Source: Nymphaea colorata
Taxonomy: Eukaryota > Streptophyta > Magnoliopsida > Nymphaeales > Nymphaeaceae
Direction of reading: 5' to 3'
Assembly (NCBI RefSeq): GCF_008831285.2
Contig: NC_045147.1
Coordinates: 17,276,854-17,340,853 of the forward strand
Length of the DNA: 64,000 bases
Position 1 is the stretch's first letter; each line of letters opens with the position of its first letter. Below the pieces are notes generated by a model, which was not told the origin of the DNA, made no database searches, and saw only the letters and a program-made list of their open reading frames with translations. Of the stretch, positions 1 through 41,163 are shown one piece after another. The translations under genes were made by a program, and so were the position numbers.

Positions 1-102
1 TTTATCTTCCCCTTTATCTCCTCTACTCCCCAAAAGAAATACAGAAAAGATGAAGAAGAAAAAAGGAGGAAGAAAGGAAGAAAGAGAGGGCAGAGCACCA
101 AC

Positions 103-748
103 CTGCCAACGGAATGGCGAGAATGTCGCCAGGAGTGATCGCCGACGTGCCCATGGCATTGACAGTCATGAGGTCGGAGAGCGTGGTGCTGTACCTGGCG
201 GCGATGGCGGGAAGCGAGTCGGGCCCCTGGACGACGTAGGAGAGGTAGACGGCGGGGAGTCCGTTGTCGGTCCCATTGAAGCAAGCACAAGGGAGAGGAA
301 TCTTGAGGGGCTGCCCAAGATCAACGAGGCCAGGGTCGGTGATGCCGTTGGCGTCGCGGATCTGGTCGGCGGTGACAAGGCCGGCGTAGACGGAGGAAGC
401 TATGGAGGCGAAGGTGTCGGAGGCGCGGGCGCGGTAGGTGACGGAGGCTACCTTGCGGATGCCGTCGACGCAGGAGCAGGGGACAGGGACCTTGAGGAAG
501 AGGCGAGCGGGAAGAATGTGGTTCTCGACGTCCGGGTAGGAGAGGTCGTAGGCGTTGGCGGTCAGTAGGGCAACGGGGTCGACCTGGAAGAGGGTGGCCA
601 CCTCCGAGACCTTGAGGTCCGTGGGGAGGGTGTAGCCCACCATGGCATTGCAGGAGTCGGAGCCGCTGCAGGGCTCGATGGTGGACTTCCCCGAGGCCCG
701 TGAGACGCAAATGAGGAAGAAGAGGAACAGCTGCAGCAGGACCGCCAT
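103..748 (-). CDS. LysM domain GPI-anchored/receptor-like protein, first exon (gene continues beyond the window)
   Basis: Extracellular LysM protein of the LYM/LYP/CEBiP type, whose members bind chitin or peptidoglycan fragments at the plasma membrane and work with LysM receptor kinases. The ATG at 748-746 opens a hydrophobic signal peptide (MAVLLQLFLFFLICVSRASG). About 195 residues of ectodomain follow, with the family's paired-cysteine linkers (PCSC, PCAC) and LysM-like segments such as the one around YVVQGPDSLPAIAARYSTTL. The reading frame runs to a CAG/GTTGGT donor at 103/102, after residue 215 plus one base. Frame beyond this point is intronic. The remaining exons, including any GPI-anchor signal, lie left of base 1. 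Family assignment is good; which subgroup (LYM1/LYM3/LYP4/LYP6 or LYM2/CEBiP) cannot be decided from this exon. Confidence 0.88.
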
Positions 749-3423: not shown

Positions 3424-3430
3424 TATAAAC
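3424..3430 (+). promoter_or_regulatory. Candidate TATA box of the GT51 gene
   Basis: TATAAAC lies 104 bases upstream of the chosen start codon at 3528. A start site about 30 bases downstream (near 3455) would place the in-frame ATG at 3447 upstream of the transcript, so the ATG at 3528 is preferred. Confidence 0.5.
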
Positions 3431-3527: not shown

Positions 3528-5040
3528 ATGCTGGCATCATATTCGTTCGGCGTCGGCGCCGTCCGGCATTCTCCTCCTGTCCGTCGCCGTCCTTACCAGT
3601 CAACCTCTCCTCAACGTCCCTTCCCTTTCAGCGATCCCCGACCACCTTCTTCCTTGTCCCTCTTCTTCCGTCCATCATTGCGAACGGAGATGCCGCCGCT
3701 CCCCAGCTGCCGAGCAGCGAGATCCTACTCCGATTTGACGCGTGGGGATGATTGGACTTTGATCTGGCTGATCCTTAGAAACGCCCTCGTCGTCCTCGTG
3801 TTCGCCTCTTCTCTGGCCGTCCTTCGCCTTCTTTTCTCCGTCGTTCCCTCCAATTTCGGGAGCCGATGGGAGGCCCTGGTTCGGGAGGAGGCGACGTGCG
3901 CTGACGCCTGGGACGTCCCTCCGTACGTTTGGCAGGCGGTGGTGGCATCAGAGGACCGCCGGTTTTTCCAGCATCGGGGCGTCGACCCGAGGGGGATTGC
4001 GCGCGCCGTGTTCTCGCTCGCGACGAACGGAGGCGGCAGCACCATCACCCAACAGGTGAGGTCAAGTTAGTGCTTGGCTTCTGGGGTGCTTCGATTCAGT
4101 TTACTTTTACATGAGTTTTGGATTTTATTCTGATTTTCTCTTTTATGATCGAGTTAGCTGAGGAGCATGGACTCGATTTGTGAATGAAACTCCGGGGCCA
4201 ATAGAGGATAACCCTGACTTTTGAGTTTCGTGAATTTACTTCTAACATTGGAAGCACTGGTAACAATCTTTGTTTATACCCAGGTTCCTCGTTTCGCTCA
4301 ACGCAAATCGTGACTCGGTTTAGTTTCCTTATTGGATGCCTTCCTGTTTTCCGATTGGAGTTGCAAGTCAAATGAGTTTCAATTATGTCCAAGAGTTAAA
4401 AAATCACATATAGTTAGCAATAGACGTGATCCATGAATTGATGCCTATCAAAAGGTCCACGCAAAATGCATCTATAGACTATAGGCCTCATACTCTCATT
4501 TGCTCGACATGCTTTATAAGATGACAAGTGCAACTGCCCGTACCATATTAGCAGCAGGAGGACGCGAGTTAGTACACGAACAAAAATATAAATACAAATA
4601 CATGAGACATGGAAAATATTTTTCTACTAGGAATTTTAGTATATATTGTTTAATTTGCTAAAGCTGATTGCTGGTTCTCTTCTTTAAAATTTTTTATAAC
4701 AGCTCGTGAAGAATGTACTCCTGCGAAGCGAGTGCAGATGGGCGAGAAAAGTTGTGGAAGGACTGGTTTCTCTTTGTTTGGAAAAGAAAATGTCAAAGTG
4801 GCAAATCCTATCGGCTTACTTGAGGAAGGTGAGCTAAATTATCTTGGTAGTGACCTTAATTGAGTAATGTCCTTGATTTGAAATGTTGATCGTGTGATTT
4901 GCATAATCTCATGAGGTTTTTTAGCAAATTAGCCATATAAGTGGTTTGGTTCATTGGATATGTGGATTGAAAAGGATTATATACTTCCGACTTTTTGTCA
5001 TAAATTATTGATGGTTACCCTCTCTTTCTCTCTCTCTCTT

Positions 5041-5076
<36 letters not shown>

Positions 5077-6495
5077 CACATATTTATATACACATACACA
5101 AAAATGTTCAATCAGACGTCACTTGCCACAGATATATTGGGGGCATGGGGTGTATGGAATTAATTCAGCGTCTGCCTTTTACTTTGGGAAGCGCCCAACT
5201 TCACTCAGTTTGGGTGAGTCTGCTCTTTTGGCTGGCATCATACCTTCGCCTGAAATTCTGTCACCTTTTAAAGACCTGAGCAGGTTTGAGCTGCATGAAT
5301 TCTTCTCTCCTTTTCTGTTGCTGTTTTTTTTGGATGATATTCTTTCATAATTTCTCTAAGGAATGAGTTATACTGATCTTGGTTTTTATTCTTGCATATG
5401 TGCATTTTCAGATGTTGCACTTGTTCTTGCTGCATATGTTCTAACTTTTTCTTTTATAAAGAGGGAAAAGATCTCAGGCTAGAGCATTGAGAAGAATGGT
5501 GGAAGCAGGTTATCTTGATGTGGAGACAGCACTATGGGTTATTAAGCAACCTATTTATCTTCACAATGATGAACCAAATCAGGTAGATAACATTTGGCCT
5601 GTTCTGTACCCTTTGAAAGAGTTATTGTTGAAGATTTTCTTTATCTCTTGTAAGTTGTAACCGAGACAATTTTATTTTCAAATTAAGAAAATCTGGAACC
5701 AACCATGAACTGAAACATTCTTAATAACTACTGACATTGTCATGAATCTAAGAGAGCTGCATGAAAAGAGCACAAATGGTAAGATTTTAGACTGACATCA
5801 AAGCTTCAACCAACCTGATCAGCTGAATTCACCCTCATGTCTATGGCAATTTGGTACAAGAAGCCAAAGCTCCCCCACTCTTCCCTTTGTCTCTAGGGTC
5901 CAAGGTTGTTAACATGGTGCTGCACTGCCACCCCATAAGGCTCAGGATTCCACTAATACATAGGAACTTTTTCAATTGGCTGGGTATTCCATTAGACAAT
6001 AAATAATGTGTTCACCACAGTGCAAGGTTAGCTAGTGAATGGTTAAAAGTAGTTCAGGTGAATCTCGACATTAGGGATCCTGATTATGTGCATTTACCTG
6101 ATCCGATTCATTTCATTTGCCTCTAGCTTTCTTGCCTCTAGCTTTCTTGCTACAAGTTTAGGAATACTGGGCAGATCTGCTATCTATAACTTGGCCTTTA
6201 AAACATTATTCGGGTGGGACTTTTTTCATTGCTTTCATGCCAATGAAGCCACCAATCAAGAATCATGACCATCCATAGCTGCACCTTCATATCTTACCAA
6301 TCCACCTTTAGGGCCAGCAAGAAATGCCTTGATAGAGTGCATATTTCAGTTTTGCAAGTGCCAATCTAACAATCTCAGTGGTACTGTGCTTCAAGAAGGG
6401 AGACACAGGCCTTCGTTTGTTAGAAATGCAGCCACTCGCCAGGTAAAACAACTGCTTTTGAATTGGGAAGAGAACCCCAATCTCTCTCTCACACT

Positions 6496-6539
<44 letters not shown>

Positions 6540-8167
6540 GGGACTAACTTTAGCCAGAGAAGCGCATATAACTGTATTAGGGGTGGTGGAAGTTATGAAC
6601 TAGCTCCTAAATAAGTCAGCACCATTCTGTAACTTGAACACAGTCTCCCCTGAAAGTTAAACTCCAACTTCTTTTTTTGTTGTTACTTGATAGATTTTAT
6701 TTGTTTGCAATTGCGTATGTCCAATATAGGCCTTTTGGCCCCTGTCCGTGAAATGATTGGAGGTGCATTTTAAATCTATCAAGGGCTTTCACTGCCCTAC
6801 TAAGGCCATCATGGACCTGCTATGCATAGGAACATGCTTGATTGACAGTTGCCAGATGATGAAGTCCAGGACCTCTAGGTATAACTTCCACCTGCACATG
6901 GTAAAAGCATAATCTATTTAGCTTGCCTAATTTTTTTTGCTACCCAGACCAACCTGGTGCACAGATAAAGAGAACTGTTCAGTGGATATCAGGAAGAAAA
7001 AACTGTGAGTGATTGTGGATTTTCTTTAGTTCAAAGACAGAAGTATATTTCCAGGGAATTTCCTGTCAAGGTCTATCACAGAAATCTTTTAATTTTTTCA
7101 GGAAAACCTTGGGAACTTAAAAAAACTAAAATATTTCAAGAATAATAAAAGAAATATCACAGTATGTATTTTACTAAATTTCTTACAAACATTTTTCAAA
7201 TGTTCAAAACAAAGTTTAAATTTTGAAGGAAATGAAATGGAAAATAGAAACTGACAGCACATATTGAAAAGAAGAATTTTCTTAGGAAAAGAAAAATATG
7301 CGGATATCATCACTATTTATTTTTTAGAAATGTCTTGGAAATATGATGATATTTTCCAGTAACGTCATTCAACTCCTTGGCAATGAAATGACAATATTTT
7401 TAACTACTGCTTTGAAATTTGTGACCGTTCTTTAATCTGAATGTCAATGGGTGCTGGTGCACATTCTAATATGTTAGAGCTAGTCAGCTACATGCTTTTT
7501 CAATTCCTGAATTATGACAAAATCACAAAGATGTTCAGAGTAGCATCGACATTTATGATTGTACTATAATTATGAATATGTTCTGGTGCACATCCGTATA
7601 TGTTACAGCTGTTCATGAATTGCACATTCAATGTTTTTCTTTTTCCTCCATTGTTGTTTTCCAATTACGAAAAGCAAATTGTAGAAGCTGCTCTTTGTGG
7701 GATTCTCTTACACAAAATGTGCTCCATAAACATGCTTGGGCTATGAGGATAATATTATCAAATTTGACCTGGCATAGACGTACCAGGGTCTACGATCTAA
7801 AATAGACACCGTATGGAAATAAAATATTTGTTCATAAATAGTAGCAGTTACGAAGACATTTAGGCAGGACTGTCTCATCAGCTGATGAGATGCTGCTTGA
7901 TGCCACATTATATCTCTACAATGTTATCCATTACCTATATCTTCAGAATAAAAACATGCATTTGATCATTGGCAGGGAACTGTAAAAGTGGCAAATGAAC
8001 AACTTACATGGAAGGATGTTTGGGATTGGGAGAAGGAAAGCAGCATGTGGGAAGTAAAAGAGCAAATGGAAACATGGGTGCAGAAACGTCGGGAGCACAT
8101 GAGCAGAATTTGTACTGTGGGAAATGGATTAGAGTCTCTGTTCAAATTGGTTAACTTATCTAAGTGA
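3528..8167 (+). CDS. GT51 family peptidoglycan glycosyltransferase, probably plastid-targeted, five exons
   Basis: Monofunctional-type murein glycosyltransferase; the family polymerises lipid II into glycan strands at a membrane. Exons: 3528-4055, 4703-4828, 5132-5283, 5462-5582, 7976-8167; all phases agree and give 372 residues. Residues 1-70 are Ser/Arg/Pro-rich and poor in acids, like a plastid transit peptide. Residues about 76-106 form one membrane helix. The GT51 motifs follow in order: SEDRRFFQHRGVD (catalytic Glu142), GGSTITQQLVKN, RKVVEG (second acidic residue, Glu195), a KWQILSAYLRK segment, then YGINSASAFYFGK and LLAGIIPSPE. The usual ILExYLN reads ILSAYLR here, so the Glu and Asn of that motif are missing. 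A short linker like that after the GT domain of PBP1 (RALRRMVEAGYLD) is kept, but there is no transpeptidase domain. The last 63 residues match nothing I recognise. Exon 5 is separated by a 2.4-kb intron and could be alternatively spliced. Confidence 0.9.
5041..5081. repeat. (TA)n-(CA)n microsatellite in GT51 intron 2
   Basis: About 13 TA units are followed by a CA tract, ending some 50 bases before the acceptor of exon 3. Confidence 0.9.
6499..6534. repeat. (AG)n microsatellite in GT51 intron 4
   Basis: About 18 AG units inside the 2.4-kb intron between exons 4 and 5. Confidence 0.9.
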
Positions 8168-8431: not shown

Positions 8432-8437
8432 AATAAA
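8432..8437 (+). terminator. Candidate polyadenylation signal of the GT51 gene
   Basis: AATAAA 265 bases after the TGA at 8165-8167, on the coding strand, at a reasonable distance for a plant 3' UTR. Confidence 0.45.
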
Positions 8438-33519: not shown

Positions 33520-34899
33520 TCATGGTGTTGCAGGCCAACCAACGCAATGGTTCGTATCAGGAACATAGATCCTCATGCCTAGACCATCCAACCCTTGATC
33601 CTCTTCATAATCATCCGACACATCATCAGCGCTTCCATCATAACTGTCCAGCATTTCATCCGCACCATCATGGAGGTGCCAATCCGAGTCGAATTCTTCA
33701 TCCCCAATTGAGTTCCATTCATCATCATCATCCTCCTCGTCATTGCAAGGCTCCTGATAATGCAGATCAAATTGGTCCACCACTTCTGGTCCTAAAACCT
33801 TCAAACCTTGCTTCTGCCTCTGAGTCAGCCATTCCTCCCCTTGCAATCTGACATACCAACATCCTCTCAAATCCAGGAACTCCAGCTCCAGGCACGCCGA
33901 AAGGATCTCTCTAACACCCGCCGTTGTCAGCAGACCATACGGCATCTCTAAATGCTTGATCTGCGGCATGGTCCTTGCAATCGCCAACGCCTCATCGTCT
34001 TGGGGGTTCTTACTCAACACCCCCATCGGATGCATTGTCCTCTTCACAGATACTAGAGATTTGCAATGCCTGCCGAAAGACTCCAGAGCTTCAGCCCCAA
34101 TGCTCTCACAGTAACTCATATCCAATAACTTCAGTTTCTGGAACTTGGCAGCAACTTGGACAACAACGGCATCACTTAATTGACTTTTGGGGATTCGCAG
34201 GCTCTCCAGAGAAGAAGCACTGACATGTCCAACAGAATAAGATCACATCACTGGAAATGCAGAATAAAGCAACAGCACAAAGGGAAAACAAAATGAAGAA
34301 GGCCAGAAGTAGAGAAGCATATGCATCAAAACACCCGGGAAGACAGATATTAAAGAAGTTATAAAAGAAATTGAAAGCATAAATCAAGGGCAGGCAGATA
34401 CTCTCGTAAAGCAGGCGAAAGAACTTGAATCTTGAAGAACAGCGTAAAGCAAAAATGGAAGCAGAAAAATACAAAGAAATGTTGAAAAAAGACCCCACAG
34501 GCAAGAAGCAAAAAAGAATAAAATAAGGGAACGAAAAAAACAGAGGGAAGAAGAGGAAGTGTGAGGGAAACTCTACTGGTCTGCTATGAAAGCGAAGGAA
34601 TTGTCGTCCGGGACGGCGTAGACGGAGAGCTGACGGAGCGAACCGGAGCTCCTGGGGAGGAGAAGGCGAAGCATCCGGTCCACCTGGTCGAGTTTGCTAT
34701 GCATCATGCACCATTCCTCGATATCGATATTTTGCCAGCAGTAAGGAGCAGCGGCGACCTCCGCCCACGATCTGCAGACCCTCGGCACCACCATCAGTAA
34801 GTCTCGCAGGGAAAGCTTGCTGAAGATCAGCCCAATCACGTCGGGAACTAATTCCTCCCAAGACCGCAATTCCTCTGCCTCCCTGCCACCACCACACAT
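33520..34899 (-). CDS. FBW2: F-box protein of the FBW2 type, two exons
   Basis: Substrate adaptor of an SCF (SKP1-cullin-F-box) ubiquitin ligase; Arabidopsis FBW2 is reported to act on AGO1 turnover and ABA responses. Exons: 34899-34577 and 34219-33520, joined in phase, giving 340 residues (Arabidopsis FBW2 is about 317). Residues 11-60 form the F-box (WEELVPDVIGLIFSKLSLRDLL, VPRVCRSWAEVA). A run of leucine-rich-repeat-like segments follows: LRQLSVYAV, SLESLRIPKSQL, LKLLDMSYCESIGAEAL, CKSLVSVKRTMHPMG, IKHLEMPYGLLTTAGVREIL, LEFLDLRGCWYVRL and KVLGPEVV. The C-terminus is strongly acidic (EEDDDDEW and a series of Asp/Glu clusters), longer than I recall in Arabidopsis. The donor is CA/GTAGAG and the acceptor CAG/TGCTTC; the join reads FIADHASSL, matching the family. 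It looks intact. Confidence 0.93.
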
Positions 34900-36649
34900 T
34901 GCTCTCTATCTCTCTCGCTCTGAGACATCAAATGCCAACCAAACAAAGGAAAAAATGAAAGGTAGGAAGAAATGTTTCTTGCTTTCTTCAAAAACGGTAT
35001 TTATTCCCTCTATCGACGAGACCGATACGGGAATCCTGCTTCAACTGTTCAACACAAATTCCACAGAAATAGCAGATGGGTATCCTCCAAATCAAGTTGA
35101 TGATGAACAAGAAAACAATGGGAGGGGAATGAAGGGGAACGCTGGGATGGGAGAAGAACCAAGAACCAGCTGAGTTTGTTACCAACGAGAAGCGAGTAGT
35201 CCGGGTTCCCCGCCTTGCAAGAAGGGTAGGCTATTCAAAAATATAGAGACAAGAAGGCTCCAAAAAAGAACAAACGATAGCAAACGTAGACCAGTAATTT
35301 TGAGGAGGATAGAAGGAAAAAAAAATGGAGTGGGGCAATTAGCCAAACTGCAAAGGGCCAACCGAAGCAGGAGTAAATTCTCCAAATGGTCTCCTCTTAT
35401 ACTTGTAGGCCATTGCTATATTCTATTCTTATATTCGGCAGGTTTAGCTCTTATCCTGGTCAATCATGTACTTAAATTTTGTTTCTCAAAACTATTATGA
35501 TTGAAAGTCGATTTGATTTGGAAACCAATTTTTGACAACATCGGTTTTCGATTGTCAAATTTATTTTCAAAAACTTGTTTAGAGAACCAAAGCAACAGAC
35601 AAGAATGAACAGCCAAAGAAGAATAAGGGGACAACGGACTTAACATTTGCCTATGATTCGAATTTGAAAGGAAAACACCAAAATTAATATCTTGCATCTT
35701 TTACCCACTGAACTGAAATTTGACAGACGGACACCATTAAAGACAAAGTGGAAGCAGCAAAGGAGGAGAAAATGACGAGCCCATTGCTGCCACCTGCACG
35801 AAGTCCCTTGTTCTTGTCTTCAGGGAGTTCATCCTCACATGACTGCAAACTTTTAGAACTCACCAGTGTGTCTGCAAATTCTTCTTCCTTTCAAGGGAAC
35901 AACATCACAACGAACAAACTAGCTAGCTGGCTCCGCTGGGTCCATGTCTTGGGTAGTTGGGTTGTCAACGGGTTGGGTTTATCTAAACATCGGGTTCAGT
36001 CCAAACCCGTTCACTTGAGTTTCATTAAAAGAAGAACCATTGCCAGTTGGACCTGCATTTTCCTATGTGGTTTTGCATCATTTTTGGATCTAAATCCAAA
36101 GCCTGACAAGAATTCCACTTAATAAAATAAAAGTAGCTCGCTAGCTTAGAACAAAGAACTAACTGATATAGTCAAACATATATTAATATTGTTGAGTGTT
36201 TTCTTAATTTTATCTCAAAGATCCAATTTAAGTTATTCATAACCTAGTCTTTATTCGACAGAAAGTTGCTATTACTAAGGCCTCAAAACAAAACGTTTCT
36301 CACGATAGATATTTTTTTTACTTACTAAAATTTCAACATGGTGTTGTGAATTGCCTTTCAAAACTTTTTAGAGCAAAAATTGAAGGGAGCCAGAGCCCCG
36401 TGGCCCCTTTTTCAGTTCCATCCTTGCATTTGCCTGCCGTCATTTATATGTGTCTCCCTGCTCAAGACTACACTGGAGAACCGGGTTCAGGCAATGGGGT
36501 GCCTCCTCTAGACACTGCCTGCTAGCTTCAGTTCTCCCCTCTTCAGATTTCTGGCTTTGCCATTGCTTGGACAGATCGACCGTCATTTACATTCGTCTCT
36601 CTGTGCTGGACAACGGATGCGCAGCAACAGGTCATTAATGGCTGCCCCA
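34900..36649. other. Intergenic DNA upstream of the F-box gene
   Basis: It should contain the promoter of the minus-strand F-box gene; no clear TATA box was seen. A 124-residue plus-strand frame at 35748-36122 has no recognisable domain. I see nothing else supported. Confidence 0.45.
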
Positions 36650-38525: not shown

Positions 38526-41163
38526 TCACACTGCACACACAAAATCTCCACTGCTTTCAATATCAATATCAGCATCAGCATCCATATCATCCATATCCAT
38601 GCTACCACCAATTAGGTGACAACCAAGCAGTGGAAAGTCTGTAGGTTTCCGTGCTTCTTGCACAACCATCATGATCTCTTCCATGCTTTGTTGAGAATGG
38701 TCTGGTTCTTGATCCTTATACATTGCTGCTTCTCCTTCTATCAATTCTATGGGCAAGTTCTTTAGAAACCATGGATGGTTTTTTATCTCAGGAATAGTTA
38801 TTCTCTGTGACAAACAGGGGAAGATGAATATAAGATAAACCAACTGAAAAAGTAATTTGATCTTAATGACTTCCCGTGACAGTCTTTCTGCATTACCTTC
38901 TCAGGATTAGCAACAAATATCCGGGTAAGCAGATGGCAGCATTCAGCAGAAATACGCACATAGTTTGGAATGGCATAGTGGGCACTGAGTATCCGCTGTG
39001 AAAAAAAACCAACCAAACTCTCTGTTAGTCCATCAAGGATGTCACTAAGCAGTTTATTTTTGAAGAAGAAGATTACCCCAATTGTCTTTTTAAAGTTCTT
39101 TGGGTCTTCTGGATCTTCAAAGGGATATGCACCAACAAGCATCACATACAGGGTGACTCCACAAGACCAAACATCTGCAATCTGGTTTCCAACGAATTTA
39201 GCACTAGTTGTTTCCAACGAATTTAGCACCAGTTTGATTATCAAAAGCAATATGTAAGAGTAGTGAGGCTCAACCTTTCCATCATACTGACGTCGGGCTA
39301 AAACCTCCGGGGCTATGTATGCTGGCGTTCCCACTGTTGACTTAGGCTGAGAATGCAAAACAGCCGACTGCAAATACAGAGAGTAGCATGAATAGAGGCA
39401 GTTAAATAAGAGAACCTGCACTGTCAAGCAGTACCTTTGAGTAGCCGAAGTCACAAATTTTAACACGAGGTGCCGTGCTTCCATCCAAGAGAGTGTTCTC
39501 AAGTTTGAGATCTCTATGGCAGATTTCCTGCAGTCAACAGAGATGCATGTAAAACTTAAGTAGCAAGAATCAGTGTAACATTGGAAAGTCTCAAGTTTAA
39601 GATTTTTATCAAAGATCTCCTGCAGTCAAGGGAGTTGCATGTAAAAACTAATGGAACAAATTAAGGGACTGCATAAGAAATAATTCCAGGTAGAGATGAA
39701 AAGCTAAGTGCAGAGAAATGTACCATGGAATGGCAGTAGCTGACTCCTGATATCAGTTGTTGGAAAAAAAATCTCGCCTGTATCAATTCGCCAGAAAACG
39801 ATCTGGTTAACTTCACGAAAGAGAAGAATGGGATAAATAGAACAATATAGCCATATACACTACAAAGGATTCTATAGAACCTCATCCTCACTGAATCTCC
39901 CAGCATTGCATATCCTCTCGAAAAGCTCACCACCAGAGGCATATTCCATTACTATGGCTAGATGAGTTGGCGTAAGCAGAACCTGGAACAGCCAAAGCCA
40001 AATCAAATCAATCCGGTGAGCATTCGCAACTCTGCTTAAAGAAACAACAGTGGTTAGATACATTAATAGCCTGAACTCTGAAAAGGGCAGTATAGGCTGT
40101 ATAGCTTCCAGAAGCTGCACCCTTCGTGCCCAACAGAAAAATTAATAGCTACAAGATCTGGATTCAAACTGAGGATACCTCCGCGTCCCATGACCACATT
40201 GAATGACAGATAAACATTGAAAAAGGCGAAGGAAGCAGAAGCTACAAACTGAGGTCACTTTTATCAGTTCATGTTTTAGAGTTAAAGAGAACATTCAAGT
40301 AATGACCTTAAATCCCGCCCTTCATGATTTGTGAGTATGCTGTATGCCTACTGCTTATCTTCTCCGAGAATTCTCTCTCTCAATTGTCGCAATTACTTTT
40401 CATAGAAAAGAAGATTCTCCAATCACCAGGCATTCGACAGAACAGGGGAGGAGGTGAAGGAAGTGGACGTTCATTTCGAATACCAAAAACATTGGTTTTC
40501 TCCAATAAAAAGACAATCGTAGAGTATGAAATATACAATAACGACCGTAAGGGGGAAAGTGAATAAATATGACGAAAGCATGGAATTGGAATCACTTGAC
40601 GAAATTCTTATGAAGTCATCTACCATCTACTTTATCGAGCAATTGCTTCTCATGGCACAAGGATGAAACCTTTCTCTGAACCGGACATGAATGTCTTAGC
40701 CGAGAAAAGGAAATAGAAAAGGAAGAAGAAAGAAACAGAAAGACAAATCTCCCTCTCCCTCTCTCTCTCTTCTCTCTCTCACTTGCACAGACACGCACAC
40801 ACATACACACTCATACCACAGATTTCATAAAAAATAATCCATGAACCATTACCTCCTTAAACCGAACTATGTTGGGGTGCGTCAAAGACCTGTGGTTCAT
40901 GATCTCCCTCTGAACATTTTCATCAATCTGCCAAACAATAATTCCTCAAAAACCAGGCCACCCACAAAACCAAACTCCACCTACCAACAAATTTTCTCAA
41001 GGTAAAGATAACACAGAGAAGAGAGAAAGAAACGAATGCGCACCTTCTGCCCTCTCTCGATGTACTTGACGGCAAACAACTCTCTTGTTCTCTTGTCTCT
41101 GACCAGCTTAGCGACCCCAAAGTTGCCGGCACCAATATCCTTCACAAGCTCATACCGTTCCAT
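38526..41163 (-). CDS. SnRK2 Ser/Thr protein kinase, subclass II (SAPK1/SAPK2, SnRK2.7/2.8 type), nine exons
   Basis: Cytosolic and nuclear kinase acting in osmotic-stress and ABA-related signalling. Exons: 41163-41044, 40927-40853, 39982-39881, 39777-39724, 39527-39435, 39367-39275, 39181-39077, 38995-38897, 38804-38526. All are in phase and give 339 residues, the usual size. Kinase landmarks are complete: [10 protein letters not shown] loop, ATP-binding Lys33 (FAVKYIERG), HRDLKLEN with catalytic Asp123, DFG at 143-145, and an activation loop [16 protein letters not shown] with the phosphorylatable Ser158/Thr159. The C-terminus has the SnRK2 box ([13 protein letters not shown]) and an acidic tail ending [15 protein letters not shown], close to rice SAPK2 (DIDVEDSGDFVCAL) and unlike the long Glu-rich subclass I tail. 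One small oddity is EICHRDL where relatives have QICHRDL, at an exon junction. Intron 6 carries a 25-bp duplication near its acceptor. A functional gene is likely. Confidence 0.95.
39185..39234. repeat. 25-bp tandem duplication abutting the exon 7 acceptor of the SnRK2 gene
   Basis: Units at 39185-39209 and 39210-39234 (tttccaacgaatttagcac core) differ by one base. They sit just inside intron 6, right against the ACCAG/ATTGCAG acceptor, so they displace the polypyrimidine and branch-point region. Confidence 0.85.

Follow-up and report, generated by a model that had tools for sequence, protein, structure and literature searches.

Why does a flowering plant carry a bacterial-type peptidoglycan glycosyltransferase (GT51) in its nucleus, and what might such an enzyme make there? 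The question is of some consequence, as the existence of peptidoglycan in the plastids of flowering plants is disputed. The gene lies in a stretch of 64,000 nucleotides of the water lily Nymphaea colorata (NC_045147.1, positions 17,276,854 to 17,340,853), hereafter the window, which sits on a 24.9-Mb contig of a genome of 407.8 Mb in 783 contigs. An earlier note on this DNA had described an intact, intron-bearing nuclear gene, and had offered it as a lone enzyme and as a candidate for an undescribed system. The gene is real; the other two claims did not survive the wider search and the literature, as set out below. The gene and its flanks comprise the following elements (window coordinates).

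3424–3429, plus strand: possible TATA box (TATAAA), 104 nt 5′ of the ATG; exact match, by consensus only
3528–4055, plus strand: exon 1, with the plastid-type N-terminus (residues 1–75), the membrane helix (about 76–106), motif I (Glu142) and motif II (GGSTITQQ)
4703–4828, plus strand: exon 2, with motif III RKVVE (Glu195) and motif IV ILSAYLR, including Arg217
5132–5283, plus strand: exon 3, the remainder of the GT51 domain (IYWGHGVYG ... GIIPSPEILSP)
5462–5582, plus strand: exon 4, in which the PBP1A-like region (TIGR02074 match, residues 126–309) ends at residue 309
7976–8167, plus strand: proposed exon 5, 63 residues (310–372) and a stop; acceptor, phase and stop fit
8432–8437, plus strand: possible polyadenylation signal (AATAAA); exact match, by consensus only

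The five exons (3528–8167) splice into a reading frame of 1119 nt, encoding 372 residues and a stop, and the two flanking signals at 3424 and 8432 are compatible with a transcript. All four introns have GT..AG borders. Introns 1, 2 and 4 are in phase 0 and intron 3 is in phase 2. Exons 1–4 are backed by homology and contain neither stops nor frameshifts. Exon 5 is a proposal drawn from splice signals, which leaves the last 63 residues of the protein uncertain: a Pfam search with residues 310–372 gave no match, and among 1159 non-coding stretches of equal length 121 have a codon score at least as high, although this score discriminates weakly, given that wrong frames of exon 1 score equally high. 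Simple repeats of TA/CA (5041–5100) and AG (6499–6535) lie within introns 2 and 4.

The sole Pfam domain of the 372-residue protein is Transgly (PF00912, GT51), matched over residues 120–281 (E = 1.6e-51; 174.7 bits against a cut-off of 27). Pfam found no transpeptidase domain on the gene product, in agreement with what had been claimed, and on domain content the protein is not a bifunctional class A penicillin-binding protein (PBP). Its affinities nevertheless point to that class. The top NCBIfam family was the PBP1A family (TIGR02074; 195.9 bits over residues 126–309, below the whole-protein cut-off), and the best relatives of solved structure were PBP1A proteins (E = 5.8e-33 to 1.2e-32), whereas the monofunctional family TIGR02070 scored 121.1 bits, short of its cut-off of 182.65. 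A PHROGs scan returned only an unnamed family. By these scores, the plant protein looks to be derived from a bifunctional PBP, and not to be a member of TIGR02070.

For conservation, the comparison set comprised 111 GT51 domains of bacteria, all picked for their similarity to the plant protein; 33 of them belong to the Vampirovibrio phylum, taken as Cyanobacteriota, and 78 to other bacteria. The plant protein keeps 36 of the 38 columns that are at least 90% conserved in this set; the kept residues include Glu142, Asp143, His149, Ser171, Thr172, Thr174, Gln176, Arg191, Lys192, Glu195, Lys208 and Tyr215. Column 142 (motif I, EDRRFFQH) is Glu in all 111 bacterial sequences, and column 195 (motif III, RKVVE) is Glu in 104 and Asp in seven, which places both catalytic glutamates where they had been reported. 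The two departures are Ser273, at a column that is Arg in 100 of the 111, and Arg217. The latter belongs to motif IV, in which Tyr215 and Leu216 are kept and Asn, usual but not invariant in bacteria, is replaced by Arg. The earlier note had taken the change from ILExYLN to ILSAYLR as a sign of a shift in substrate or activity. The first part of this change is ordinary: column 213, Ser in the plant, is Glu in 71, Thr in 13, Ser in 12 and Gln in seven of the bacterial sequences. The second part is odd, as column 217 is Asn in 105, Asp in four, and Ser and Thr in one each, with Arg in none. On this comparison, it is a single motif-IV residue that is unusual, and not the catalytic set.

Arg217 raises the prospect that the fold has been retained for another task, whether the use of a different lipid-linked glycan or a non-catalytic role as a scaffold at the envelope or in division. 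The proposed exon 5, which carries no known domain, and the long branch of the plant protein in the tree described below (1.75 changes per column, with unusual composition) would suit such a change, for which there is a precedent in the recruitment of angiosperm MurE to the plastid RNA polymerase (PMC12681378). We nonetheless consider a shift of this kind unlikely: the protein keeps nearly all of the conserved columns, and the genome possesses MurA, MurB and MurD, though these are reportedly missing from many angiosperms.

Next, we considered the origin of the gene. No relative emerged from a scan that relied on variable peptide stretches of the plant protein alone; an alignment-based search found at least 569, the best 80 of which were kept. 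Among the matches listed, no bacterial protein exceeds 51% identity to the plant GT51 (one listing covering 292 genomes of one phylum), and the Vampirovibrio-phylum proteins lie at about 39–51% over the domain. The tree contained 89 rows (the 33 of the Vampirovibrio phylum, the best-scoring 55 of the 78 other bacteria, with 23 left out, and the plant), and its bootstrap stopped short of convergence (0.988). The plant row is unplaced: it belongs to no starred clade, and by tree path its nearest rows are Bacillota and Armatimonadetes-type sequences. Two constrained placements were put to the AU test and neither was rejected: a cyanobacterial one (p = 0.385; lnL 4.74 below the free tree) and one with 32 rows, mostly alphaproteobacterial (p = 0.489; lnL 0.45 below). 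The cyanobacterial test used 29 of the 33 rows; the other four, L032, L114, L115 and L139, fall apart from these in the free tree and were omitted, L032 and L115 having the same sequence. At 14 columns diagnostic of the cyanobacterial rows, the plant has the cyanobacterial residue in six, that of the others in one and neither in seven; at four columns diagnostic of the remaining bacteria, it agrees with these in two and with the cyanobacterial rows in one. Trp221 occurs in 28 of the 33 cyanobacterial rows and in none of the 78 others. The diagnostic columns lean slightly towards a cyanobacterial origin, but the count is only suggestive, as similarity to the plant protein was the criterion by which the bacteria had been selected. 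The moss PBP1A has been reported nearest to Fibrobacteres-Chlorobi-Bacteroidetes sequences (PMC9434261), a group hardly represented among the rows compared here.

A recent bacterial origin is unlikely, because the gene has introns and no match above 51% identity among those listed, in line with the earlier view that the gene is not a contaminant. That a bacterium gave the gene by recent transfer, or contaminated the assembly, could draw on the AU tests, in which neither placement was rejected. Against it stand the four introns, the 24.9-Mb contig, the fruitless scan with the plant protein alone and the position of the plant row outside every starred clade. We regard recent transfer or contamination as scarcely credible.

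GT51 was found at one locus only in the genome. The enzyme is not alone in its pathway, as had been supposed, as exons of six companion genes (MurA, MurB, MurD, MurE, MraY and MurG) lie elsewhere in the genome, out of the nine genes of the Mur set, all of which except MurC were covered by the search. These genes were recognized exon by exon, a procedure that may miss genes.

Contig C13: MurA, exon with the Cys in PGGCNIGARP
Contig C11: MurB, exon-level match
Contig C11: MraY, exon-level match
Contig C2: MurG, exon-level match
Contig C12: MurE, an exon, then a nearby frame carrying DNPK
Contig C6: MurD, one exon matching murD best (E = 3.3e-10), with a GTNGKS frame 2.9 kb off

For MurD, the family match belongs to the exon, the GTNGKS frame being known by its motif. 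The exons of MurA, MurB and MurD go beyond the four Mur genes that all plants keep. The MurE frame at C12:4822565–4823182 (minus strand; L024) has, by eye, a long acidic N-terminal extension; such an extension has been described for seed-plant MurE-like proteins (PMC9434261).

Several matches were set aside. The Glyco_tran_28_C matches on C8 and C1 were rejected as MurG; they look, we presume, like ALG13, and in NCBIfam the sole match to the C8 frame was PssE. The EPSP_synthase matches on C12 were not counted as MurA and represent two EPSPS-like copies of similar exon layout (C12:15733299–15737244 and C12:22175474–22180475). A Glycos_transf_4 match on C2, presumably GPT-like, was not counted as MraY, to which it had a weak match (E = 4.4e-4). 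The search for MurF was answered by MurE only. That for Ddl (PF07478) gave a single match in the genome, on C5, which was rejected as Ddl and which we take to be the large chain of carbamoyl-phosphate synthase. No match in the genome was obtained for the penicillin-binding transpeptidase (PF00905) or for the L,D-transpeptidase YkuD (PF03734), in searches that were positive in 10 and 6, respectively, of 14 control genomes. Ddl is reported to be present in every sequenced plant genome (PMC9954125), and its being missed here suggests that genes escape a search made exon by exon, a caution that extends to the missing transpeptidase.

The failure to find MurF and Ddl in the genome search, along with Arg217 and the slender backing of exon 5, is what one might expect of a decaying relic, in which the transpeptidase has gone and the transglycosylase is a dying pseudogene or is no longer expressed. 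Such decay is hard to reconcile with four exons free of stops and frameshifts, with GT..AG introns and with an intact catalytic set; at 39–51% identity to the bacterial matches listed, a sequence free of constraint would be expected to have lost its motifs. We judge the relic quite improbable.

We favor instead, with a probability of about 0.62, the reading that the gene is the surviving transglycosylase half of the plastid's ancestral class A PBP, which would make un-cross-linked strands from lipid II. The strong GT51 match, the retention of the conserved columns, the PBP1A family as best match and the six companion genes argue for it, as do the lack of PF00905 and PF03734 matches, the published transglycosylase-only genes of angiosperms and the un-cross-linked strands that a GT51 enzyme without a transpeptidase gives in vitro (PMC4632607). 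Other evidence weighs against it. Arg217 stands where 105 of the 111 bacteria have Asn, and if either MurF or Ddl were truly absent, the plant would be without normal lipid II. Plastid division in moss reportedly requires both activities of the PBP (Takahashi 2016, cited in PMC12681378); therefore, a transglycosylase alone may be unequal to the ancestral job.

As the surviving half of a plastid PBP, the nuclear-encoded protein would be imported into the plastid. The N-terminus is plastid-like in composition, rich in Arg, Ser and Pro (8 Arg, 2 acidic residues, 13 Ser/Thr and 13 Pro in residues 1–60); the plastid type claimed for it thus stands as a prediction, unproven. A single hydrophobic segment at about residues 76–106 (19-residue Kyte-Doolittle maximum of 2.45 at residue 88) corresponds to the one membrane helix that had been claimed. 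Anchored by this helix in the inner membrane of the envelope, the protein would face the space between the two envelope membranes. Lipid II would be supplied by the plant's own Mur enzymes with MraY and MurG, and, by homology, Glu142 and Glu195 would serve its transfer onto the growing glycan strand. The strands would stay un-cross-linked or pass to an unknown partner, given that the genome search yielded neither a D,D- nor an L,D-transpeptidase.

A broader scenario may be sketched, which we hold tentatively and think doubtful; it is conditional on the water lily being an early-diverging angiosperm. The cross-linking half of the PBP would have been lost in an early angiosperm, before the living lineages split, and the lipid-II pathway would then have been kept by flowering plants, ending in a transglycosylase with Arg in motif IV. 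Its product would be a plastid glycan, naked and un-cross-linked, or else a new polymer akin to it. With MurA, MurB, MurD, MurE, MraY, MurG and a glycan polymerase that looks intact, but no transpeptidase among the genes found, this genome is well suited to asking what the polymer is and why cross-linking was the step to be lost.

Other genes of the window deserve mention. A gene for a LysM protein (26–748, minus strand; PF01476, E = 2.6e-16; hydrophobic N-terminus by eye) lies head-to-head with the GT51 gene at a distance of 2.8 kb, a pairing that may be due to chance, and seemingly extends past the start of the window. It resembles, as we presume, the LYM1/LYM3 peptidoglycan receptors. Exons of a class II DAHP synthase (PF01474; 21708–22163 and 23141–23806, both on the minus strand) belong to an ordinary shikimate-pathway gene, and the frames with an F-box domain (34576–34905, minus strand) and a protein kinase domain (38801–39625, minus strand) are ordinary plant genes. 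A LysM protein, PPASP, is reported to accompany the peptidoglycan pathway of plants (PMC4815162).

Among bacterial systems, the monofunctional glycosyltransferases (TIGR02070) resemble the plant protein in having GT51 and a single membrane helix but lacking a transpeptidase, and are its likely working analogue, although the plant protein scores higher with the PBP1A family. The GT51 proteins of the Vampirovibrio phylum (L114–L144) have Trp221, His223 and Glu259 in common with it; theirs are long open frames of 608–846 residues. The plastid class A PBPs of moss and gymnosperms (PpPBP and PaPBP; PMC12681378) are likewise nuclear-encoded and have the GT51 of a class A PBP. They differ in carrying the transpeptidase domain, which the N. 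colorata gene is without and which was not found in its genome.

Within the vascular plants, the published record already contains much of what is seen here. Plants possessing the pathway except for PBP have been reported, as has a family in Phytozome whose proteins carry the transpeptidase domain and lack that of the transglycosylase (both PMC4815162), and orthologues of the PBP family are reported from Thuja, Asparagus and Citrus (PMC10784329). Labelling of the envelope is reported for Arabidopsis as well, though only four of the genes are present there (PMC9954125), and labelling therefore need not depend on such a gene. Among the open-licence papers listed by our searches, none dealt with this gene in a water lily or in Amborella. 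Transglycosylase-only PBP genes are in print for Asparagus officinalis, Citrus sinensis and crops (MacLeod 2024 and Dowson 2024, cited in PMC12681378), and the angiosperms so described have a near-complete Mur set, put at nine Mur genes, beside a transglycosylase-only gene, and are without a transpeptidase (PMC12681378, PMC9954125). The kind of gene is thus already known, and the claim of an undescribed system is not supported. Likened by descriptions and not by sequences, the angiosperm transglycosylase-only PBP remnant is matched by the present gene, which is nuclear, has introns, occupies one locus and likewise combines GT51 without a transpeptidase with the keeping of most Mur genes.
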